A stretch of 64,000 nucleotides of DNA, from the NCBI RefSeq assembly GCF_000195595.1, contig NZ_GL882544.1, forward strand, positions 310,001 through 374,000, written 5' to 3'. This document shows, one piece after another, positions 35,431 to 47,518 of the stretch. The translations under genes were made by a program, and so were the position numbers. Within the stretch, counting starts at the first letter, position 1. Every line of letters starts with the position of its first letter. The notes under the pieces are model-generated. The model saw only the letters and a list, made by a program, of their open reading frames with translations. It made no database searches and had not been told where the DNA came from. This DNA is from Actinomyces sp. oral taxon 170 str. F0386. Its GTDB lineage: Bacteria > Actinomycetota > Actinomycetes > Actinomycetales > Actinomycetaceae.

Positions 35431-37314
35431 CTACTTGCCGGGCTTGGCACCGGTGGGCGTGTCCGCGCCGAGGGCCGCGATGAAGGCCTCCTGGGGGACC
35501 TCGACCCGACCGATGGCCTTCATGCGCTTCTTGCCCTCCTTCTGCTTCTCCAACAGCTTGCGCTTACGGGTGATGTCGCCGCCGTAGCACTTGGCGAGCA
35601 TGTCCTTGCGCAGGGCCCGGATGGTCTCGCGGGCGATGACCCGGGTGCCGATCGCCGCCTGCACGGGCACCTCGAACTGCTGGCGCGGGATGAGGTCCTT
35701 GAGACGCTTGGTCATCATGACGCCGTAGGAGTAGGCCGAGTCGCGGTGGACGATGGCGCTGAAGGCGTCCACCTTGTCCCCGTTGAGCAGGATATCGACC
35801 TTGACCAGGTTGGCGTCCTGGGAGCCGTCGGCCTCATAGTCCAGGGAGGCGTAACCGCGGGTGCGCGACTTCAGGGCGTCGAAGAAGTCGAAGACGATCT
35901 CCGCCAGCGGCAGCACGTAGTGCATCTCCACGCGGGACTCGGAGAGGTAGTCCATACCCTGCATGGTGCCGCGGCGCGACTGGCACAGCTCCATGACCAT
36001 GCCCACGAACTCGCTGGGGGTCAGAATCGTGGCCCGCACGACCGGCTCGGAGACGGAAGCGACCTTCCCCTCGGGGAACTCGCTGGGGTTGGTCACCGTG
36101 TGCGTGGTGCGGTCCTCCATGGTCACCTCGTAGACCACGGAGGGGGCGGTGGAGATGATGTCCAGGTTGAACTCGCGCTCCAGGCGCTCGCGAATGATCT
36201 CCAGGTGCAGCAGGCCCAGGTAGCCGCAGCGGAAGCCGAAGCCCAGGGCCACCGAGGTCTCCGGCTCGTAGGTCAGGGCGGCGTCGTTGAGCTTGAGCTT
36301 GTCCAGGGCGTCACGCAGGACCGGGAAGTCCGAGCCGTCCACCGGGAACAGGCCGGAGAAGACCATGGGCTTGGGGTCCTGGTAGCCCGACAGCGGCTCG
36401 GCGGCCGGGGTCGCGGCGGAGGTGACCGTGTCACCGACCTTGGACTGGCGCACGTCCTTGACCCCGGTGATGAGGTAGCCGACCTCACCGGCCCCCAGGC
36501 CTGCCGACGGCGTGGGCTCAGGGCTGATGACGCCGATCTCCAACAGGTCGTGGACGGCCCCGGTGGAGAGCATCTCGATGCGCTCGCGGGGCTTGAGGGC
36601 GCCGTCGACGACGCGCACATAGGTGACCACGCCGCGGTAGGTGTCGTAGACGGAGTCGAAGATCATGGCGCGGGCCGGGGCACCGGGGTCACCGTGCGGG
36701 GCCGGGACGGTCTCGACGATCCGGTCGAGGAGCTCGGGCACGCCCTGGCCGGTCTTGCCGGAGACCTTGAGGACGTCGTCGACGTCGCAGCCGATGAGGG
36801 AGGCGATCTCCTCGGCGTGCTTCTCCGGCTCGGCGGCGGGCAGATCGATCTTGTTGAGGACCGGGATGATGGTCAGGTCCCCCTCGATGGCCATGTAGAG
36901 GTTGGCCAGCGTCTGGGCCTGGATGCCCTGGGCGGCGTCGACCAGAAGGACCGCTCCCTCGCAGGCGGCCAGGGAGCGGTTGACCTCGTAGGAGAAGTCG
37001 ACGTGCCCGGGGGTGTCGATCATGTTGAGGGCGTAGGCGCGCGTGACGCCGTCGTCGCCCTCGAGGGCCCAGGGCATGCGCACGGCCTGGGACTTGATGG
37101 TGATGCCGCGCTCGCGCTCGATGTCCATGCGGTCCAGGTACTGGGCGCGCATGTCACGGGGCTGGACGACGCCGGTGGCCTGAAGCATGCGGTCGGCCAG
37201 AGTGGACTTGCCATGGTCGATGTGCGCGATGATGCAGAAGTTGCGCAGCCGCGCCTGCTCGGTGGCGGCGGGCTGGACGCTGGTCATCTGCTCTGGTGTG
37301 GGGATCGGTGACAC
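35431..37314 (-). CDS. lepA: Elongation factor 4 (LepA)
   Basis: A ribosome-associated translational GTPase of about 627 residues. It has G1 AHIDHGKST (residues 30-38), [17 protein letters not shown]-Tu-like domains and the LepA-specific C-terminal domain ending [20 protein letters not shown]. The start chosen is the GTG at 37314, with AGGAA at good spacing; ATGs at 37341 and 37350 are in frame and possible. Together with rpsT, holA and hemW it marks the conserved actinobacterial backbone. Confidence 0.94.
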
Positions 37315-37504
37315 GGAGATCGGTTCCTGGCTCTTCCTCATATCTGGCATGGGTCTGGCCCAAGTGTCCCACGACGGCGCCCCGCCGCCCCAGCCCACCG
37401 GGCCCGCCCGCGGTGTGAGGTGCGGCCGCTCATTGATCCCCGTAGACGCAGGCACAGGCGACTCCACAACCGAGCACCGACCAGCTTAGGTTAACCTTCC
37501 TCAC

Positions 37505-37960
37505 ATGCTGGAATGGATCCACAGCCTGCCCTATCCGTGGGTGTTCCTGTTCTTCTGGTGCCTGGGCATGATGCGCTCGCACACCATGTACTGGATCGGC
37601 CGGGGCGTCACGGTGGGAACTGCGCACACCCGTTGGTCCTCGCTGCTCGAATCGCCCATGTACGCCCGCGCCCAGTCGTGGTCGGCCCGCTGGGGCGTGC
37701 TGGCCGTGCCGATGTCCTTCCTGACCGTCGGCCTGCAGAGCTTCATCCAGATCTCCGCGGGCGTGGCCCGCATGCCGCTGCGCCGCTACGTGGTGGCCAC
37801 AGCCGCCGGGGCGATCGTCTGGGCGGCCGTCTACACGACCATCGGCATGGCGATCGTGACGGCCTGGCTTACCGGCCCGATCGGCCGCATCGTCATCATC
37901 CTGGCCGCAGCGGCGCTGGTCGCGTTCATCGTGTTACGCCGCCTCGGCCGGCAGCCGTGA
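37505..37960 (+). CDS. DedA/SNARE-associated family membrane protein (short)
   Basis: A 151-residue protein with three or four hydrophobic segments. The C-terminal part (QSFIQISAGVARMPLRRYVVATAAGAIVWAAVY) matches the end of the DedA/VTT domain, with its conserved glycines and arginines. It lacks most of the N-terminal half of typical ~200-residue DedA proteins. The 10-base palindrome AGGTTAACCT (37488-37497) lies just before the ATG. Diverges from lepA; function unknown, possibly lipid scrambling. Confidence 0.75.
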   Translation: MLEWIHSLPYPWVFLFFWCLGMMRSHTMYWIGRGVTVGTAHTRWSSLLESPMYARAQSWSARWGVLAVPMSFLTVGLQSFIQISAGVARMPLRRYVVATAAGAIVWAAVYTTIGMAIVTAWLTGPIGRIVIILAAAALVAFIVLRRLGRQP

Positions 37961-38029
37961 TCAGTAACCCGTACGGCGGTCGGTAAGGCCGCTGGTGAGA
38001 CCGGTTTCGTCTCCTGGGGTCGGCAGGGT

Positions 38030-38035
38030 TAGAGT
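38030..38035 (+). promoter_or_regulatory. -10 box of the trp operon
   Basis: TAGAGT lies seven bases before the trpL ATG, giving a leaderless leader-peptide transcript. A TTTCGT 19 bases further upstream is a weak -35. Confidence 0.5.
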
Positions 38036-38042
38036 GACCGTC

Positions 38043-38108
38043 ATGACGACACGGCGCACGACCTGGTGGTGGCTCCCCTTGAGGCGAGCCACCATCCTGA
38101 CGCGCTAG
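38043..38108 (+). CDS. trpL: trp operon leader peptide (21 aa)
   Basis: A 21-codon frame reading MTTRRTTWWWLPL, then RRATILTR and TAG, with three consecutive Trp codons (38064-38072). It begins seven bases after the -10 box and lies 84 bases upstream of trpE. It is the sensor of a transcription-attenuation system that relaxes when charged tRNA-Trp is scarce. Confidence 0.9.
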   Translation: MTTRRTTWWWLPLRRATILTR

Positions 38109-38128
38109 GACGTACCGGCTCGCTCACC

Positions 38129-38162
38129 GCGGGCCCGCCCGACGCATGAGTGAGAGGCCCGC
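38129..38162 (+). promoter_or_regulatory. trp attenuator hairpin
   Basis: GCGGGCC (38129-38135) pairs with GGCCCGC (38156-38162) across a 20-base loop, between trpL and trpE. It is a candidate terminator or antiterminator arm; no U-run follows, so other pairings may matter. Confidence 0.45.
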
Positions 38163-38191
38163 CTGACCCACGATCTCAGGAAAGAGGCCCC

Positions 38192-39883
38192 ATGCCACCC
38201 ACCGTGTCAGAGAAGGAATCTACGGTCGCATCGTCCGCGGCCCCGCCCACTGTCCTCACGCGCCCGGTGCGCTACCCCTCCGACGGCGGGGTCCTCCTTG
38301 AGCGCCTCACCCGAGCGGGCCTGCTGCGCACCACCCGCAATCCGGCAGACGAGAACGCGGCTGCACGTCCCGTGGACTGTGTGCTGCTGGAGAGCGCCGA
38401 CATCACGACGAAGGTCTCGCGCACCACGGTCGCCGTCCTGGAGGCCTCGGCCAGGCTGACCTGCTGGGACGGGACCGTCACCGCCGAGGCGCTGTCCACC
38501 GTCGACGGCGAGGGCCCTGGCCCCGATGGCCTCGCAGCCCTGGCCCGTCTGGAGGAGCGCCTGGGCGAGCACGTCACCGGCCACTCCCCCGACCGGCTGA
38601 CCCTCACCCTGCCCACCAGCTCCGACGACGACCCCACCCTCGAGGAGCGCGAGCGCCTGACGGCCCTGTCCACGATCGAGCCCCTGCGGGTGCTGGCTCA
38701 GGCAGAGGTCGACCACCCCCACCTGCCGCTGGAGGTAGGTGCCTTCGCCTTCGACTACCTGTCCACCTTCGAGTCCCTGCCCGAGGTGGCCCAGGGCGCC
38801 AACACCTGCCCGGACTACCTCTTCTACGACGCGCGCATCATCCTCGTCGTGGACCACCCCACGCAGGAGGCGACCCTGGTGGGGGCCTCGGTCGACGCCG
38901 CGGGCCTGGAGTGGCGCATGGATGCGCTGGCCGCCGCCATCAACACTGCAGCCGAGCAGGCTCCGGCCTCGCCCACGGCCGCAGCCGACTCCCCGGTCCT
39001 GCGCGCCGTGCCCACCACCTCGGATGCCGACTTCGAGGCGGTTGTGGAGGAGATGCGCGGCTACATCGCCGACGGCGATGTCTACCAGGTGGTGCCCTCG
39101 CGCGGCTTCACCATCGCCTGCCAGGACACGCTGGCCGCCTACCACGTGCTGCGCCACGCAAACCCCAGCCCCTACATGTTCTACCTGGCCGCCCCGGACT
39201 TCGAGCTCTTCGGCGCCTCCCCGGAGTCGGCACTGCTGCACTCGGCACGCACCGGTCGGGTCGCCATCCGTCCGATCGCCGGGACCCGGCCACGCGGACT
39301 ACACCCCGACGGCACGGTGGACCACGAGCGCGACACCCGCCTGGAGCTGGAGCTGCGCACCGATGCCAAGGAGGTCGCCGAGCACGTCATGCTCGTGGAC
39401 CTGGCCCGCAACGACGTCGCCCGAGTCAGCCGCCCGGGCACTCGCAGCGTCCAGGACCTTCTGCGTGTGGACCGCTACAGCCGGGTGATGCACCTGGTCT
39501 CCGAGGTCTCCGGTGAGCTCGCCGAGGACCTGGACGCCCTGGACGCCTTCCGCGCCTCCATGACGATGGGAACCCTCACCGGTGCCCCCAAGCTGCGTGC
39601 CGCCGAGCTCATCCGCCAGGCCGAGGGCGTGCGCCGCGGCTCCTACGGCGGCTCAGTGGGCTACATCCGCGGCGACGGCGAGCTGGACACCTGCATCGTC
39701 ATCCGCTCCGGTTTCGTGGCCGGCGGCACCGCCCTGATCCAGGCCGGCGCCGGGGTGGTAGCGGCCTCGTCCCCGGCCGCCGAGACCGCCGAGACCATCC
39801 ACAAGGCCCGCGCCGTCCTGGAGGCGGTCGCCGCAGCCCAGGGAGCCACACTCGTCATCGACACGACCGGTAAGGAGGCCTGA
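38192..39883 (+). CDS. trpE: Anthranilate synthase component I
   Basis: Converts chorismate to anthranilate together with TrpG (563 aa). The LLES feedback motif (about residues 65-68, VLLESADI) suggests allosteric inhibition by tryptophan. The C-terminal chorismate-binding domain has MGTLTGAPKLRAAELI, GSYGGSVGYIRGDGELDTC and IQAGAGVVAASSP, all close to enteric TrpE. The ATG at 38192 follows AGGAAAGAGG. It is the first structural gene of the operon, under the trpL leader. Confidence 0.95.
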   Translation: MPPTVSEKESTVASSAAPPTVLTRPVRYPSDGGVLLERLTRAGLLRTTRNPADENAAARPVDCVLLESADITTKVSRTTVAVLEASARLTCWDGTVTAEALSTVDGEGPGPDGLAALARLEERLGEHVTGHSPDRLTLTLPTSSDDDPTLEERERLTALSTIEPLRVLAQAEVDHPHLPLEVGAFAFDYLSTFESLPEVAQGANTCPDYLFYDARIILVVDHPTQEATLVGASVDAAGLEWRMDALAAAINTAAEQAPASPTAAADSPVLRAVPTTSDADFEAVVEEMRGYIADGDVYQVVPSRGFTIACQDTLAAYHVLRHANPSPYMFYLAAPDFELFGASPESALLHSARTGRVAIRPIAGTRPRGLHPDGTVDHERDTRLELELRTDAKEVAEHVMLVDLARNDVARVSRPGTRSVQDLLRVDRYSRVMHLVSEVSGELAEDLDALDAFRASMTMGTLTGAPKLRAAELIRQAEGVRRGSYGGSVGYIRGDGELDTCIVIRSGFVAGGTALIQAGAGVVAASSPAAETAETIHKARAVLEAVAAAQGATLVIDTTGKEA

Positions 39884-39886
39884 GCC

Positions 39887-40627
39887 ATGGCCGTCACCAG
39901 CACTGAGCATCACGGACAGGACGTGAGCCAGCACCCCGAGGGCAGCGCCGCAGCGACTCAGTCCCCGGCCCGCGTGGCCCTGCTCGACAATCGCGACTCC
40001 TTCGTCTACAACCTCGTCGACCAGTTCGCGACCCTGGGCTCCCAGATCGAGGTCTACCGCAACAGCGTGCCGGCCTCCCGGGTGCTCGCGGCGCTCGAGC
40101 CCACCGACGCCGAGCGCGAGGCCGGGCGCCGCCCGGTCCTGTGCCTGTCGCCTGGCCCGGGTTACCCGTCGACGTCGGGCTGCCTCATGGAGCTCATCGC
40201 CGCCGCCCTGGAGCAGGCGATCCCCACGTTGGGCATCTGCCTGGGCTTCCAGGCCCTCGTCGAGGCCTGCGGCGGACGGGTCGCCCCGGTGGGTCCGGTC
40301 CACGGCCGCTCCGACCGCGTCGAGGTCACCGAGGCGGGCCGCACCGACCCGGCCTTCACAGTGCTCGACGGCGGACCACTGGACGTGGCTCGTTACCACT
40401 CCCTGGGCACGCGCACGCTGCCCGAGGCCCTCGTCGGCCTGGCCCGTACCGCGCAGGCGAACGACGACGGAAGCGGCGGCAATGACGGTACCGGTGGCAT
40501 CGTGATGGCGGCCCGGCACCGGTCGGTGCCGGCGGTCGGCCTGCAGTTCCACCCCGAGTCGATCCTCACCCCGCAGGGGCCTGCCCTCCTCAGGGCCATC
40601 ACCGCCGACCTGGCCCGGACTCCCTAA
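39887..40627 (+). CDS. trpG: Anthranilate synthase component II (glutamine amidotransferase)
   Basis: Supplies ammonia from glutamine to TrpE (246 aa). It has the class I amidotransferase triad: Cys118 in GICLGFQ and His222/Glu224 in FHPES. A ~25-residue Ser/Ala-rich N-terminal extension precedes ALLDNRDSFVYNLVDQF. An insertion rich in Gly, Asn and Asp (about 190-203) is unusual. It follows trpE by three bases. Unlike E. coli, trpG is not fused to trpD, which starts 109 bases later. Confidence 0.94.
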   Translation: MAVTSTEHHGQDVSQHPEGSAAATQSPARVALLDNRDSFVYNLVDQFATLGSQIEVYRNSVPASRVLAALEPTDAEREAGRRPVLCLSPGPGYPSTSGCLMELIAAALEQAIPTLGICLGFQALVEACGGRVAPVGPVHGRSDRVEVTEAGRTDPAFTVLDGGPLDVARYHSLGTRTLPEALVGLARTAQANDDGSGGNDGTGGIVMAARHRSVPAVGLQFHPESILTPQGPALLRAITADLARTP

Positions 40628-40736
40628 GCCACGCACTCTTCGTCATCCCACAGATGCAGTCATCCACGCCGCCGCTCGGGCAGAATCATCTCCGAGCGCC
40701 CCAAGCCTCAACCACCCGTGAAGGAGCCACAGACCG

Positions 40737-41849
40737 ATGAGTGAGACCAACAGCGCGGCCCCCGCCGCTGCGGACGGCACGCATGTTGCCACGGCGCAGG
40801 AGGCCCATGAGCTGCTGCGCGAAGTCGTTCAGGGCAGGCGCCTGACCCGCGAGCAGGCCTCCACGGTCTTCGCTGCCCTGGGCGCCGGGGACCTGTCCGA
40901 GGCGGAGACGGCGGCGCTGCTGGCGGCGCTGCACGCCCGCGGCGAGGAGCCCCAGGAGGTCGCCGGGGCCGCGAGCGCCTTCCGCCAGGCCGCCCGGGCC
41001 TTCCCGTCGGTAACCTTCCCGCTGGTGGACGTCGTCGGCACCGGGGGCGACGGCGTGGGCACCATCAACATCTCCACGGGGGCGGGCCTCGTGGCCGCCT
41101 CGATGGGGATCGCGGTGGCCAAGCACGGCAACCGGGCCGTCTCCTCCAAGACGGGGGCGGCCGACGTCATCGCCGAGCTGGGGCTGCCCTTGGACGTGGA
41201 GCCGGCCACGGCGGTCGAGCTGCTGGCCCGCGACCACTTCACCTTCCTGTTCGCCCAGGCCTACCACCCGGCCATGCGGCACGTGGCGCCGGTGCGCCGG
41301 GCACTGGCGACCCCCACGATCTTCAACGTCCTGGGTCCGCTGGTGAATCCGGCCCACCTGACCTTCCAGCTCATGGGCGTGTGGGATCCGAGCATGCTGG
41401 ACATGATCGCCGAGGCGATGGTCCAGCTGGGGCGTGAGCGGGCGCTCGTCGTGCACGGCTCGGGACTGGATGAGATCGCCGTCCACGGGCCGACCCTCGT
41501 GCGTGAGGCGACGCCCCGAGGGGTCAAGGCCTACGAGGTCGTGCCCGAGGAGCTGGGAGTCACCACCTACGAGCTGGCTGATCTTCTGGGCGGAGAGCCC
41601 TCCGAGAACGCCCGCCTGCTGCGCGAGGCCATCTCGGGTGAGGGAAGGCCCGCCCACCGCGACGCCATCGCCGTCAACGCCGGCGCTCTGCTGTATCTGG
41701 CGGGCCCGGCCGACAACCTGGCCGACGGGACCGCCATGGCGCTGGAGCAGATCCGCTCCGGCGGTGTGGCCCGCCACCTGGAGTCCATGACCAAAGCCGG
41801 CGATCTGGCCAGTGACCCGGCCGGCGATTCAGCCGCCGAGCGGGCCTGA
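40737..41849 (+). CDS. trpD: Anthranilate phosphoribosyltransferase
   Basis: Transfers phosphoribose from PRPP to anthranilate (370 aa). The PRPP-binding glycine motif GTGGDG is at residues 101-106, followed by KHGNRAVSSKTGAADVIAELG and LGPLVNPAHLTFQLMGVWD. The 109-base gap from trpG shows no promoter or terminator I can support, so it is probably cotranscribed. AAGGAG lies about ten bases before the ATG. Confidence 0.95.
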   Translation: MSETNSAAPAAADGTHVATAQEAHELLREVVQGRRLTREQASTVFAALGAGDLSEAETAALLAALHARGEEPQEVAGAASAFRQAARAFPSVTFPLVDVVGTGGDGVGTINISTGAGLVAASMGIAVAKHGNRAVSSKTGAADVIAELGLPLDVEPATAVELLARDHFTFLFAQAYHPAMRHVAPVRRALATPTIFNVLGPLVNPAHLTFQLMGVWDPSMLDMIAEAMVQLGRERALVVHGSGLDEIAVHGPTLVREATPRGVKAYEVVPEELGVTTYELADLLGGEPSENARLLREAISGEGRPAHRDAIAVNAGALLYLAGPADNLADGTAMALEQIRSGGVARHLESMTKAGDLASDPAGDSAAERA

Positions 41850-41858
41850 GGAGAGACC

Positions 41859-44141
41859 GTGACCACCTCCGACACCGCCCCCACTGACTCCGTGGATGCC
41901 GGCTCCTCGGCCCCGGACCCCGGCGAACGCACCCACCGCGAGCCGGTTGAGGCCCGCCTCATCGCCACGGGCACGGTCCTGGACTCGATCGTGCAGGCAC
42001 GCCGTGAGCGCATCGACGAGCTGCGCGCGCGCTTCGGGCACCTGAGCGTCGAGGAGCTGGCGCGCTCGCAGCGCTCCCTCGCCGCTGCACTGCGCACCCG
42101 CAATGGCCAGAGCCGCAGCCCGCAACCGGCTCTCATCATGGAGTGCAAGGCGGCCTCGCCCTCGCGCGGCACCATCCGCTCCGACTACGACCCGGCCTCG
42201 TTGGCCGCGCAGTACGCGCCCTACGCCGCCGCGGTCTCGGTACTCACCGAGCCCGACCGCTTCAACGGCTCCTTCGACGACCTGGCGACCGTGCGCGAGG
42301 CGGTGGACGTACCCGTCCTGTGCAAGGACTTCATCGTCGATGAGGTCCAGGTGCTGGCGGCCCGCAGCCTGGGGGCGGACGCGGTCCTGCTCATGCTCTC
42401 GGTCGTGCCCGACGACGTCTACCGCGAGCTGGCCGAGCTGGCCCACTGCCTGGGCATGGAGGTGCTCACGGAGGTCTCCACGCCGGAGGAGATGCACCGG
42501 GCGGCGGCGCTGGGCGCCGAGGTCATCGGCATCAACAACCGCGACCTGCGCACCCTGGAGACGGACCTGGCACGCACCGAGGAGATGGCCCCGCTGGCCC
42601 CGGCCGGGGTGGTCCTCATCGGCGAGTCGGGGGTCAGCGCACCCGACGACGTACGGCGCCTGTCCGGCCTGGTGGACGCCCTCCTGGTGGGCTCGTCCCT
42701 GTCCGGCGCCCCCGACCCGGCCGAGGCCGCCCGGGATCTGGCCACCGCGGTCCCGCTGCCCCAGCGGGACGGACAGCCCCAGAGCCAGGACGCGGCGTCG
42801 TCGGGCCAGGAGCCGGGCGAGGGCGGGCAGGCGGGGCATCACCCGCGCCTCCCCGCGTTCTTCGGCCCCTACGGCGGCCAGTTCGTGCCCGAGCTGCTCA
42901 TTCCTGCCCTGGACCAGCTCGAGGACGCCTTCATCGATGCCCAGGCGGACCCCGCCTTCGCAGCCGAGCTGGACACGCTCATGACCCGCTACCTGGGGCG
43001 CCCCACGGCCGTCACAGAGCTGCGCAACCTGCCCCTGGAGGGCAACGCCCGCATCCTGCTCAAGCGCGAGGACCTGGTCCACGGCGGCGCCCACAAGGGC
43101 AACCAGGTCTTGGGCCAGGCCCTCCTGGCCAAGAGGATGGGCAAGCAGCGCATCATCGCCGAGACCGGCGCCGGACAGCACGGGACGGCCACGGCCATGG
43201 TCTGCGCTCTGCTGGGACTGGACTGCACCATCTACATGGGGGCCACCGACGTCGTGCGCCAGGCGCCCAACGTGGAGCGTATGGAGCTCATGGGCGCCAC
43301 GGTGGTACCGGTGGACAGCGGGGCCGGCACGCTCAAGGACGCCGTCAACGAGGCGCTGCGCGACTGGACCGCCTCTTTTGCCGACACCCACTACCTGCTG
43401 GGCACTGCCGCCGGTCCCCACCCCTTCCCCACGATCGTGCGCGAGTACCACCGGGTCATCTCCCGGGAGGCCCGTGCCCAGGTCCTGGGGCTGACAGGGC
43501 GCCTGCCGGACTCGGTCATCGCCTGCGTGGGCGGGGGCTCCAACGCGATCGGCATGTTCGCCGAGTTCATCGACGATCCCGGGGTCGAGCTCATCGGGGT
43601 TGAACCCGCCGGCGAGGGGCTGGACACGCCGCGCAACGGCGCCCCCATCAACAAGGGCCTGGTGGGGATCCTCCACGGGGCGCGCAGCTACCTCATGCGC
43701 ACCTCCGAGGGGCAGGTCGAGGAGTCCTTCTCCGTGTCCGCGGGTTTGGACTATCCGGGTGTGGGGCCCGAGCACGCCTGGCTGTCGGACACCGGCAGGG
43801 CCAGGTACGTCGGCATCAGCGACGACGACGCGATCGAGGCCTTCCGGCTGCTGTCGCGCCACGAGGGGATCATCCCGGCTGTGGAGTCCGCCCATGCCCT
43901 GGCCCAGGCACTGGCCATGGCCCGGGAGGTGCCCGCCGGCGATGAGCCCCCGATCCTGCTCGTGTGCCTGTCGGGTCGAGGGGACAAGGACCTCGACCAG
44001 GTGCAGGCGCGGCTGGGCGGCTCGTTCTCCACCGACGGCGCCGTGGCCCGGGCCGCGCGCATGGTGGAGCAGATGGGCAAGCGCACTGAGTACGCCGGCC
44101 TGAACGCAGGCACGAGCACTTACCCGGACGAGGAGTTCTGA
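41859..44141 (+). CDS. trpCB: TrpC-TrpB fusion: indole-3-glycerol-phosphate synthase / tryptophan synthase beta
   Basis: One uninterrupted 760-codon frame carries two enzymes. Residues ~36-297 are TrpC (IGP synthase): [10 protein letters not shown] with Lys97, [11 protein letters not shown] with Lys156, and [10 protein letters not shown] Gln/Gly/Ser-rich linker of about 34 residues follows. Residues ~332-735 are Trp[21 protein letters not shown], the PLP lysine Lys413 in [19 protein letters not shown] and [10 protein letters not shown]. Both halves look enteric-type. There is no TrpF domain between them. The GTG at 41859 has GAGGAG upstream; trpA starts one base after the stop. The expected separate trpC and trpB genes are absent. 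Confidence 0.93.
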
Positions 44142-44142
44142 G

Positions 44143-45018
44143 ATGAGCCGCTATCCCGCGATGTTCGACGTCCTCAAGGAGCGCGGCGAGGGTGCCTTCG
44201 TCCCCTTCGTCATGGTCGGCGACCCCGACCCGACCACCAGCGAGGCCGTCATCGAGGCTCTCATCGCAGGTGGGGCTGACGCCTTGGAGCTGGGCGTGCC
44301 CTTCACAGACCCGGTCGCCGACGGCCCCACGATCCAGAGGGCCCATGTGCGTGCCCTGGCCGCGGGGACGAGCTTCCACGACTGCCTGGAGGTGGTCGAG
44401 CGGGTGCGCCGGCGCCATCCGCAGCTACCCATCGGCATGCTCATCTACGGCAACGTCCCCTTCGCGATGGGCCTGGAGCGTTTCTACGACGAGTGCGCGC
44501 AGGCCGGTATCGACTCAGTCCTGCTGCCCGATGTCCCGATCCGGGAGTCGGCCGCCTTCAGCCAGGCCGCTGAGGCGGCCAGTGTGGACGCCGTCTACAT
44601 CGCGCCGCCGTCGGCCGCCGCCGAGACCCTGGACGCGGTGGCGGCGGCCTCTCGGGGCTACGTCTACGCCGTCTCCCGAGTGGGTGTGACCGGCACCGAG
44701 AGGGCCTCCTCCGTCGAGGGTCTCGCCGAGTCGGTGGAGCGCCTGCGGGCCGATGCCGCTGCGCCCGTCATGCTGGGCTTCGGCATCTCCACGCCCGAGC
44801 AGGTCTCCGAGGCCATCACCGCGGGCGCCGACGGTGCGATCAGCGGCTCGGCCACGGTCAAGATCGTTGAGCGCTACGCCCCCGAGATCGTGGCCGCCAC
44901 CTCCGAGGAGCACGGCGGACCCGGCAGCGAGGAGCGGCGTCACTACGCGCTCGGGGCGCTGCGCAGTGAGCTCGTCGCCTTCACCGCCGCCATGAAGGAG
45001 GCCACGCGCCGATACTGA
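44143..45018 (+). CDS. trpA: Tryptophan synthase alpha chain
   Basis: Splits indole-3-glycerol phosphate to indole and glyceraldehyde 3-phosphate; the indole is channelled to TrpB (291 aa). Catalytic Glu49 and Asp60 lie in ALELGVPFTDPVADGPTIQR, at the same numbers as in E. coli. SRVGVTGTERASS and GFGISTPEQVSEAI complete the barrel. It is the last gene of the operon. Its beta partner here carries an N-terminal TrpC domain. Confidence 0.95.
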   Translation: MSRYPAMFDVLKERGEGAFVPFVMVGDPDPTTSEAVIEALIAGGADALELGVPFTDPVADGPTIQRAHVRALAAGTSFHDCLEVVERVRRRHPQLPIGMLIYGNVPFAMGLERFYDECAQAGIDSVLLPDVPIRESAAFSQAAEAASVDAVYIAPPSAAAETLDAVAAASRGYVYAVSRVGVTGTERASSVEGLAESVERLRADAAAPVMLGFGISTPEQVSEAITAGADGAISGSATVKIVERYAPEIVAATSEEHGGPGSEERRHYALGALRSELVAFTAAMKEATRRY

Positions 45019-45067
45019 GCCGGCCGATCGCCGGGTGATGGCCGAGCGTCAAAAGCAGTAGCCCCTC

Positions 45068-45096
45068 TTTACGAGTGATCTGCACCACGCTATATT
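45068..45096 (+). promoter_or_regulatory. Promoter of the first secreted paralog
   Basis: -35 TTTACG (45068-45073), a 17-base spacer, and -10 TATATT (45091-45096), about 49 bases before the ATG. It lies in the trpA 3' region and would uncouple the secreted gene from the trp operon. Confidence 0.6.
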
Positions 45097-45144
45097 GACC
45101 AAGTAGTTACTTCCGTCCTGACTGCTCTGGAAAAGAGGTTGCCC

Positions 45145-45813
45145 ATGCATCTGCGACACCGACGACCAGCTTCATCCTGGCGACGCCTTGCCGGCGTCGC
45201 CACAGCCCTCCCCCTGCTCGTCGCCGGCCTACTCACCTCGCCGGCACAGGCCGCCCCCGGCACGGAGAGCGTCATCGCCTCCGGCATCTACAACTCGAAC
45301 GGCACCGGGTGCCAGGGCTCGAGCGCCAGCGCCGACTGCCTCAGCTGGGGCCTACGCATTCCCTCCACCATCGCACCGAAGAAGGACCTCACTGTCACTA
45401 TTGAGGCCGACTCCGCCCCCGGCCAGTGGGTCTGGAACTGCCTCGCGAGCGACCGGGTCGCCGGTACGGCATCGTTCTACGACTCCCCGAACGGAGATGG
45501 GACCAGGAAGCTGAGCGAGTCCGACCTCAGATACTTCGCGCACCTCTATTACGGAATATACGGGGACAGCGCCGGACAGGTCGACGCCATCACGTGCACC
45601 CCGGAGCATCTGAGCATCACCTACAAGATCGATGACCTGGTGCGCTCGGAGGGCTCGTACCTCGATCTGAGCTTTGGAACGACCACGGTGACCCCGGGAT
45701 CGGGCGAGCGCACCTACTCCTTCTCGCCGACCGTCACGACCTCCGCAGACAACACCTCTCAGAAGATCACAGCAACCGTGCAGAAACCTGCTGAGAACGC
45801 AGCGCCCCGTTAG
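45145..45813 (+). CDS. Secreted protein of unknown function (short paralog)
   Basis: A 222-residue exported protein. A basic N-terminus, hydrophobic core and cleavage site LLTSPAQA^APG form a clear signal peptide (about 33 residues). The mature domain starts GIYNSNGTGCQGSSASADCL and has four cysteines that could pair. It shares the pattern ADCLSWGLRIPSTIAPK ... EADSAPGQWVWNC with the next gene, so the two are tandem paralogs. No LPXTG anchor is seen, so it is probably free or non-covalently bound. The ATG at 45145 has GAGG seven bases upstream. Confidence 0.85.
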   Translation: MHLRHRRPASSWRRLAGVATALPLLVAGLLTSPAQAAPGTESVIASGIYNSNGTGCQGSSASADCLSWGLRIPSTIAPKKDLTVTIEADSAPGQWVWNCLASDRVAGTASFYDSPNGDGTRKLSESDLRYFAHLYYGIYGDSAGQVDAITCTPEHLSITYKIDDLVRSEGSYLDLSFGTTTVTPGSGERTYSFSPTVTTSADNTSQKITATVQKPAENAAPR

Positions 45814-45831
45814 AGGCACGGAAGACAGAAG

Positions 45832-45877
45832 GACGAAGGTCGGGTACACGAAAGTATTCGTGTACCCGACCTTCGTC
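45832..45877. terminator. 21-bp perfect hairpin terminator
   Basis: A 46-base palindrome: perfect 21-base arms beginning GACGAAGGTCGGG, and an AGTA loop. It starts 19 bases after the stop of the first secreted gene. It separates the two paralogs, giving each its own transcript. Confidence 0.8.
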
Positions 45878-45929
45878 TTCGCCATCCCTAACGGGGCAAT
45901 AGATCGCACGTGGGGAGTATTCCAACCTT

Positions 45930-45957
45930 TTGATAATGTCCTTCTTGACGATATATT
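45930..45957 (+). promoter_or_regulatory. Promoter of the second secreted paralog
   Basis: -35 TTGATA (45930-45935), a 16-base spacer, and -10 TATATT (45952-45957) in an unusually AT-rich stretch. The start codon at 46001 is about 43 bases downstream. Confidence 0.65.
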
Positions 45958-46000
45958 AATGAGGCAATTGGTTCCCTTCCCGATCCCCTCGGAGAAAGGC

Positions 46001-47518
46001 GTGCTCGTGCACACCCCACCTTCTCTTCCCGCTGGGCTGCGGCGACGCCTCCTGCGCATTGCCTTGGCTCTTCCCCTCATCGCCGTCGGCGCCGTCTCCG
46101 CTCCGGCGTCCGCTGATGCCGACATCACCGTGGAAGGGCTCTACCACACGGCCGGTGCCGGTTGCCACGGCTCCGACAATGCCGAGGGCTGTCTGAGCTG
46201 GAGAGTTCGCATTCCATCGGCCATCGCCCCGAAGGGCTCCACGAATGTCACCATTGAGGCCGACTCCGTGCCGGGCCAGTGGACCTGGGCCTGTCCTTCC
46301 CCGGACGGTGACGAGGTGGCCGGGACGAGCTCCTTCTACATCGACAAGGGCAATGGCGAGCCCCCGATCTTGATGGCGGACTCCGGGCTGAGCTCCATCT
46401 CTGAGCTGTACAACCCCCTGCTGGATGACTCCATCGGCTCGGTCAAAGCTGTTTCCTGTACTCCTAAGCACCTGAAGCTGACCTATGAGGTCAACTTCTA
46501 CACCTACTGGGACAAGAGCAGCTACTTCGACCTGGACCTCGGGACCACGGTGGCGGCTCCCGGCGCGGCGGCGCGCAACTACCGTTTCACGCCCACGATC
46601 GAGGTCTCCACACGCAACGCGATTCTTCGCCCCACTGTCACTGCCCAGAAGCCCGCTGCCAGCGCGGCTCACGCCACCGTCTCCGTCGAGGACGTCAGAG
46701 TCGATGGGGCCGCCAAGGACACCGCCCGCTTCACCATAACGGCGAGGAATGACTCCACCACGCCCTTGTCCGACTTCGCCATCTCCACGGACCGCGTCAA
46801 AGGGCGCGCTCAAGCAGCCTCGGTGACCTGTGACCTGACCGCCTTCGGCGGCGAGGTCGTCTCCGCCACGGGTCCAGCCGAGAGCCTCACAGTCTCCAGC
46901 GGCAAGGCGAAGGTTCCCCAGGGCAAGGAGATCACCTGCCAGGTGGACCTGAACGGCGTCGTCGGACGCAACAGGGTCAAGGCCGCACTCACCACCGGCG
47001 GACAGACCTTCTCCCGCGACTACGTCAAGGACCAGCCGGTGGTCGAGGTGGAGACTCATCCCACGGATCTCTTGGTCGAGGCCGCCCCCACCGGCACCTA
47101 CGAGGTCGAGGTCGGCTACACCGTCACCTTCACCAACACCACCGACGCCGACGGATCCGGTTCCGATATCGTCCTGCACCCCCGGGTCCCCACCGGCTTC
47201 ACGCTCAAGAGCGTGACGGGTACTGGTACCCCCTGGTGGGTCGGCCCGGACAGCTATGTTCTCCAGGATGACGGCTCCTTGTCATTGCGTACCGGTGACT
47301 CCCTGAACGCCAACTCGTCAACCACGATGACCTTCACCAGCATCTACGAGGTCAACGCAGAGGCGGTCACCGAGGACGGCTGGAGGGCCCTGGGCACCTG
47401 CAGCCCCCAGGACCCCTCCCAGGGACTGACCACCCGGATCGACGTCACCGGCAGTGAAGGCGGCACTGAGGCCGGGACCCACTCGATCTGCACCCCCGTG
47501 ACGCGCACAGGGAACTAG
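46001..47518 (+). CDS. Secreted multidomain protein of unknown function (long paralog)
   Basis: A protein of about 505 residues with a signal peptide ending VGAVSAPASA^DAD. Residues ~40-220 are paralogous to the preceding gene (GLYHTAGAGCHGSDNAEGCL, then IPSAIAPK and EADSVPGQWTWAC). Two further beta-rich, DUF11/Ig-like modules follow (ATVSVEDVRVDGAAKD...; VGYTVTFTNTTDADGSG). No LPXTG motif or C-terminal anchor helix is present. The GTG at 46001 (or 46007) has GGAG/AAAGG upstream; a longer frame from 45860 would place the promoter inside the gene. A surface or matrix protein is likely. Confidence 0.82.
   Translation: MLVHTPPSLPAGLRRRLLRIALALPLIAVGAVSAPASADADITVEGLYHTAGAGCHGSDNAEGCLSWRVRIPSAIAPKGSTNVTIEADSVPGQWTWACPSPDGDEVAGTSSFYIDKGNGEPPILMADSGLSSISELYNPLLDDSIGSVKAVSCTPKHLKLTYEVNFYTYWDKSSYFDLDLGTTVAAPGAAARNYRFTPTIEVSTRNAILRPTVTAQKPAASAAHATVSVEDVRVDGAAKDTARFTITARNDSTTPLSDFAISTDRVKGRAQAASVTCDLTAFGGEVVSATGPAESLTVSSGKAKVPQGKEITCQVDLNGVVGRNRVKAALTTGGQTFSRDYVKDQPVVEVETHPTDLLVEAAPTGTYEVEVGYTVTFTNTTDADGSGSDIVLHPRVPTGFTLKSVTGTGTPWWVGPDSYVLQDDGSLSLRTGDSLNANSSTTMTFTSIYEVNAEAVTEDGWRALGTCSPQDPSQGLTTRIDVTGSEGGTEAGTHSICTPVTRTGN

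Follow-up and report, generated by a model that had tools for sequence, protein, structure and literature searches.

In the trp operon of Actinomyces sp. oral taxon 170 str. F0386, IGP synthase (TrpC) and the tryptophan synthase beta chain (TrpB), whose steps are separated by that of TrpA, are read from one gene. This raises the questions of whether the joined frame is real, from which ancestral operon it came, and what the joining of the two domains would mean for the pathway. The window is the whole stretch of DNA analysed here, 64,000 nucleotides long (contig NZ_GL882544.1, positions 310,001 to 374,000), and coordinates refer to it unless another locus is named.

A single gene for TrpC and TrpB

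The fusion gene has a GTG start with GAGGAG upstream, followed by 760 codons, codon 761 being the sole in-frame stop. Its parts are as follows:

41859..44141, + strand: trpC::trpB fusion gene, 760 aa (ORF reading and NCBIfam/Pfam profile matches)
41979..42740, + strand: IGP synthase (TrpC) domain, residues 41-294 (PF00218, full profile)
42741..42857, + strand: linker, residues 295-333, rich in Gln, Gly, Pro and Ser (gap between the profile matches; AlphaFold2 pLDDT <50 at 301-329)
42858..44009, + strand: TrpB domain, residues 334-717 (TIGR00263)
44010..44138, + strand: C-terminal tail, residues 718-760 (13-residue motif conserved among Actinomycetaceae fusions; predicted helix at 728-738)

The Pfam IGPS profile (PF00218) is matched over its full length (1-254 of 254, 277.6 bits) and the TrpB profile (TIGR00263) over positions 2-383 of 385, with 575.8 bits against a cut-off of 392.45. 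Both domains are complete in one frame, which confirms the in-frame TrpC-TrpB fusion of the preliminary description. The fused TrpC domain keeps E95, K97, K156, E205, N226, R228, E256 and S257, which we take to be the counterparts of all eight IGP synthase residues E51, K53, K110, E159, N180, R182, E210 and S211. In the TrpB domain, K413 in the motif HGGAHKGN aligns with HGGAHKTN of Salmonella TrpB, presumably the site of the PLP lysine, and is invariant in the 22 fusions of alignment A1. Compared with the copy in the window, the fused domains of 10 close genomes have dN/dS values of 0.10-0.27 (TrpC) and 0.03-0.05 (TrpB). As read from the sequence, both domains would be active, so that the chain would carry two working enzymes.

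The trp operon and its leader

The operon in the window has the order trpL-trpE-G-D-(C::B)-A, with the following genes around the fusion:

38043..38108, + strand: trpL, leader peptide MTTRRTTWWWLPLRRATILTR, three successive Trp codons at 38064-38072 (read from the sequence)
38192..39883, + strand: trpE (NF010079, 588.7 bits, cut-off 471; Pfam Chorismate_bind)
39887..40627, + strand: trpG (Pfam GATase, 124 bits; best NCBIfam match, NF004169, below its cut-off)
40737..41849, + strand: trpD (TIGR01245, 376.6 bits, cut-off 199)
44143..45018, + strand: trpA (TIGR00262, 284.8 bits, cut-off 102; begins one base past the fusion gene's stop codon)

For trpE, the ATG at 38192 behind GGAAAGAGG is a likelier start than the mechanical ORF start at 38150. 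The Trp codons of trpL base-pair with a segment further downstream, giving a stable hairpin (z -2.4), and the trpL region suggests attenuation-like control. No sigma-70 promoter-like or terminator-like sites were found in 37900-38250, and an Rfam scan of 36000-46000 gave 7 matches, all far below their gathering scores. By hand count, a WWW leader stands ahead of trpE in 38 of 43 fusion loci, in all 12 actinobacterial TrpCF loci and in none of 8 native operons. Behind trpA, the ORFs 45139-45813 and 45860-47518 have in common the segment GCxGS...CLSW.xRIPSxIAPK and hydrophobic N-terminal stretches, and their products are possibly secreted paralogues.

Linker, predicted structure and transfer of IGP

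Here it is proposed, with considerable confidence, that the gene encodes two working Trp enzymes on a flexible tether, and that it goes back to a captured trp operon which lost a TrpF made redundant by PriA, TrpC then being joined to TrpB. The tether itself is the 39-residue gap between the PF00218 and TIGR00263 matches, whose 30-residue core has 6 Q, 6 G, 4 P and 3 S, in agreement with the Gln/Gly/Ser linker described previously. Among 26 representatives of the main Actinomyces group, the linker has 18-87 residues and a variable composition rich in Ala, Gly, Pro and Ser, and it is probably disordered. The AlphaFold2 model, built on a 22-row alignment, has a mean pLDDT of 76.5 and a pTM of 0.52, with values mostly >85 in the TrpC domain and mostly >75 in the TrpB domain, apart from a weak stretch at 598-634. 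With the low pLDDT of the linker and this pTM, the single-chain model gives neither docking nor a fixed arrangement of the domains. The 13-residue motif of the tail is absent from the two NF010375-type rows (bifunctional IGPS/TrpB, discussed below) of alignment A1.

A more demanding proposal, compatible with the tethered pair, is that selection favoured the tether for docking IGP synthase onto the TrpA-TrpB complex, with IGP being channelled to TrpA. Two independent fusions of these domains, in identical order and each with trpA next, speak for it, but trpC or trpCF adjoins trpB in both ancestral operons, and this adjacency alone explains the choice of the fused partners. Selection for docking also sits poorly with a linker that varies so much in length and composition and with a model in which the domains take no fixed arrangement, and is rather unlikely; directed transfer of IGP to TrpA is possible but likewise doubtful.

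The native locus and the lone TrpC

Five relatives have the gene order hisF-hisI-trpE-trpC-trpB-trpA-lgt, with pyk behind it in L149, L152, L155 and L158 and no pyk in reach in L157. The genome of the window has hisF-hisI-trpC-lgt-pyk, with a few extra ORFs between hisF and hisI, and thus carries another trpC:

L148:7567-8394, equal to G000:C41 about 181567-182393, - strand: lone trpC (outside the window), between hisI and lgt

All 49 genus genomes carry this lone trpC. In all 30 copies inspected, K110 is changed to N or H, N180 to D or S, and S211 to G, and E210 is changed in 28 of them, being kept in L200 and L213; we take these to be catalytic positions in IGP synthase numbering. Measured against the copy in the same genome as the window, dN/dS lies at 0.044-0.057 for 10 close genomes and at 0.13-0.25 for 5 genomes at a greater distance (dS 0.8-1.8), and the gene is retained in G183 and G193, both without trpA. 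Because of the residue changes in 30 of 30 copies, the retention and the low dN/dS, the lone TrpC is regarded as conserved without the active site of an IGP synthase. Of 10 residues checked, 8 to 10 are intact in the lone copies of four genomes where no fusion was seen (G169, G120, G127 and G151); the copy of the fusion genome G010 keeps 7 and has one stop in frame. A bolder combination, that actinobacteria twice and independently tethered IGP synthase to tryptophan synthase so that, with TrpA, a single assembly would carry out the last three steps with directed IGP transfer, the displaced native TrpC of Actinomyces being kept in a non-catalytic, new role that outlives the pathway, is improbable.

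One chain or two

The reading of two enzymes on one chain would be affected if the single frame gave rise to TrpC and TrpB as separate proteins, through translation or processing. The long, variable and probably disordered linker is a possible protease site, and 25 of 32 representative Actinomycetaceae fusion linkers hold an in-frame ATG, GTG or TTG, so that an argument from start codons holds for the window and a few relatives only. In the window frame, residues 277-343 have none of these codons, and a usual internal start for a free full-length TrpB was rejected there. Across wide divergence, the junction frame also stays open in no fewer than 42 of the 200 family genomes, and separate chains are accordingly given only a slim chance.

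Origin of the fusion

The preliminary description saw a simple origin of the fusion in the loss of TrpF from a trpCF-trpB arrangement, and this origin is supported by the trees, the gene order and the relatives in the family that keep TrpCF. The separate TrpC and TrpB trees agree in placing the fused domains on the enteric/TrpCF side. In the TrpC tree (102 rows, leaving out fusion rows >93% alike within their group, repeats of the same locus, and L068 and L069, whose TrpC is split over two frames; L074 was to enter only by passing the 93% filter), the 32 Actinomycetaceae fusions group together (100/99). They share a 60-row clade (100/99) with 28 TrpCF proteins, as sister to the actinobacterial TrpCF clade and not nested in it. 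The 18 NF010375-type fusions form another clade (99/96), which belongs to a larger one of native actinobacterial TrpC (33 rows, 100/99), and a single clade for both types is rejected, with a log-likelihood lower by 109 and a p-AU of 6.5e-5. With Deinococcus added, the fusions stay on one side of a branch with 100/99 support, the deeper branches being weak. The TrpB tree, a quick tree with SH-aLRT support only and every second gammaproteobacterial TrpB removed, has the Actinomycetaceae fusions in a 76-row enteric-type clade (98) and the NF010375-type fusions among native sequences, in a clade of 32 rows (100); the Actinomycetaceae fusion clade itself has a moderate SH-aLRT of 88, and its sister is the clade of stand-alone second TrpBs. 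As the two types fall in different clades in both trees and the AU test rejects their union, the TrpC::TrpB fusion arose at least twice.

These results bear on the alternative that the fusion came from a native actinobacterial trpC-trpB pair by loss of a stop, in the same event as the NF010375-type fusions of family code f3, which we take to be probably Bifidobacteriaceae. Among the matches listed, a single stop is often all that separates native trpC from trpB in a shared frame, so that such a fusion is one mutation away, and of the NCBIfam profiles NF010375 matches the whole protein best; even so, the clades differ in both trees, the operons of the two fusion types differ in gene content and leader, and the AU test, under the model applied, rejects a common origin, leaving this alternative very improbable.

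With TrpCF proteins all around the fusion clade, loss of TrpF from a TrpCF ancestor is the simpler reading. The order trpE-G-D-(C::F)-B-A also occurs in Gammaproteobacteria, Corynebacterium and Dermabacteraceae, and within Actinomycetaceae TrpCF with a separate TrpB is found in complete order in L168, L170 and L171 and from trpD on in L169, with TrpCF alone in L172. No TrpF remnant was found in the linkers. Against TrpF, 6 sister-branch linkers reach scores of 24-32 (mean z relative to shuffles -0.17) and 26 genus linkers have a mean z of -0.08, with a true TrpF start scoring 201; the loss of TrpF is therefore deduced from the trees alone. Two Deinococcus plasmids (L245, D. proteolyticus pDEIPR01, and L246, D. 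radiophilus pRadio1) carry trpE-G-D-(CF)-B-A, with proteins 66% identical to the fusion protein over the matched parts and, in pRadio1, an IS982 transposase after trpA. These trp plasmids are a possible vehicle for transfer.

Other trpB arrangements were seen as well. A second, stand-alone trpB lies upstream of trpE in L039, L042, L044, L048, L049, L057, L060, L063, L161 and L162, and a stand-alone trpB with no other trp genes in reach was found in L073, L080, L089, L091, L093 and L095-L097. In two Dermabacteraceae loci (L064:7486-9618 and L065:7453-9585), TrpB and TrpA share one 711-aa ORF adjoining the TrpCF gene.

Comparison with named architectures

The bifunctional IGPS/TrpB proteins of NF010375/PRK13802, the latter presumably built on Bifidobacterium, are like the Actinomyces fusion in their domains, domain order and downstream trpA, but differ in their separate origin, shorter linker and operon. 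The fusion protein matches positions 11-674 of the 695 in the NF010375 profile in one stretch, with 617.7 bits (617.2 in the genome search), below the cut-off of 1386. As this architecture is already named in NCBIfam, the fusion is not a new kind of protein; the Actinomyces lineage is an independent origin of a named architecture, scoring under half of its cut-off. The TrpCF proteins (NF006945/PRK09427), known from E. coli and Corynebacterium, have their TrpC domain in one clade with the fused TrpC and share the operon order, with a WWW or WW leader, but they retain the TrpF domain, which in the Actinomyces fusion is gone, TrpC being joined to TrpB; NF006945 gives 312.2 bits over TrpC only, below its cut-off of 380. 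In the TrpF/TrpB proteins of NF010376/PRK13803, TrpB is likewise C-terminal, but the N-terminal part is TrpF and not IGP synthase, and the profile is matched through TrpB with 576.9 bits, for a cut-off of 819.

The multifunctional tryptophan enzyme of Euglena also combines IGP synthase with tryptophan synthase in a single chain. A single gene with five catalytic domains is reported (PMC2395257). The likeness, which is by description, is to a eukaryotic enzyme with more domains than the Actinomyces fusion. No description of the Actinomyces fusion was found in the open-access literature, a search that covers few subscription papers.

Distribution in the genus and the family

The closest named loci belong to Actinomyces naeslundii, A. 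johnsonii, A. oris and one Actinomyces sp., with 91-94% identity in the best segment. Both domains lie in one ORF in 32 of the 33 named Actinomycetaceae loci that hold both (L032-L063), the exception being L074, which is broken in trpE, trpD and trpB. In a family sample of 200 genomes, one open frame spans both domains in at least 35 of 37 genomes of the genus, made up of 27 single matches among the matches listed, 6 loci that were read (L160-L165) and 2 deduced from both domain matches being in register within an open frame of equal length (G145 and G156). The other two, G183 and G193, have a stand-alone trpB only, among the matches listed, and no trpA was found in them. Together with G188, G132, G150, G196, G010, G073 and G091, the fusion is in one frame in at least 42 of the 200 family genomes; these family counts are lower bounds, and some of the loci are from the same species as named loci, so that locus counts are not species counts. 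In a sample of 396 genomes of the phylum, at E <=1e-170, only the genome of the window gave a stop-free full-length match, which, with so strict a threshold and no genome over the cut-off, is weak evidence of rarity.

The fusion looks real and old: a stop or frameshift hidden at the junction by a sequencing or assembly error, in favour of which nothing was found beyond the draft state of the source genome (3.1 Mb, 76 contigs), is ruled out for practical purposes by the open frame in the named loci and in the genomes of the genus.

TrpF and PriA

No trpF was found in the genome of the window. In the family sample, 11 of the 200 genomes have it, none of them among the 37 that belong to the genus. 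PriA is present in the genome of the window (379.8 bits, cut-off 306; contig C13), a further match at C41:184271 being HisF and not PriA. Among 34 genomes searched, the PriA family is matched in all 14 with the fusion, and in 7 of these the match exceeds the cut-off. Of the five TrpCF genomes, 3 have PriA over the cut-off and 2 have no match, so TrpF and PriA are not strictly exclusive.

In the sister branch, a PriA-family gene directly follows trpA in 14 of 14 loci (L029-L031, L050-L056, L165-L167 and L184), some species being counted twice. In 6 of 7 genomes checked, this gene is the best PriA-family match and is below the PriA cut-off, and G010 has an additional PriA over the cut-off. The same test gave no PriA-family gene at the operon in 9 main-group loci and 5 TrpCF loci.

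In A. oris MG-1, deletion of priA leads to Trp auxotrophy (PMC5404923); the main text of that study has neither 'trpC' nor 'trpB'. The same source reports that in Corynebacterium a trp operon was taken up and PriA became the HisA-only SubHisA (PMC5404923), an outcome opposite to that in Actinomyces.

Proposed mechanism and meaning

An ancestor would have taken up an enteric-type operon, trpL-trpE-G-D-(C::F)-B-A, the TrpF domain of which would have been redundant with the host PriA and could be lost because PriA covers the same step. The remaining TrpC would then have been joined in frame to TrpB; the order of these events and the kind of DNA change are what we infer from the present-day loci. 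In the resulting pathway, PriA would supply CdRP, the TrpC domain would form IGP, TrpA bound to the TrpB domain would release indole, and TrpB would make tryptophan. As the TrpB domain would pair with TrpA from the next gene, the fusion would supply the steps before and after TrpA, and the tether may raise the local concentration.

In the Actinomyces fusion, the capture and repair of a pathway would thus be readable: a foreign-type operon would have come in, a redundant domain been dropped and two enzymes become one protein. With two independent fusions and both unfused and TrpCF relatives, a direct test of whether tethering affects flux would be possible.
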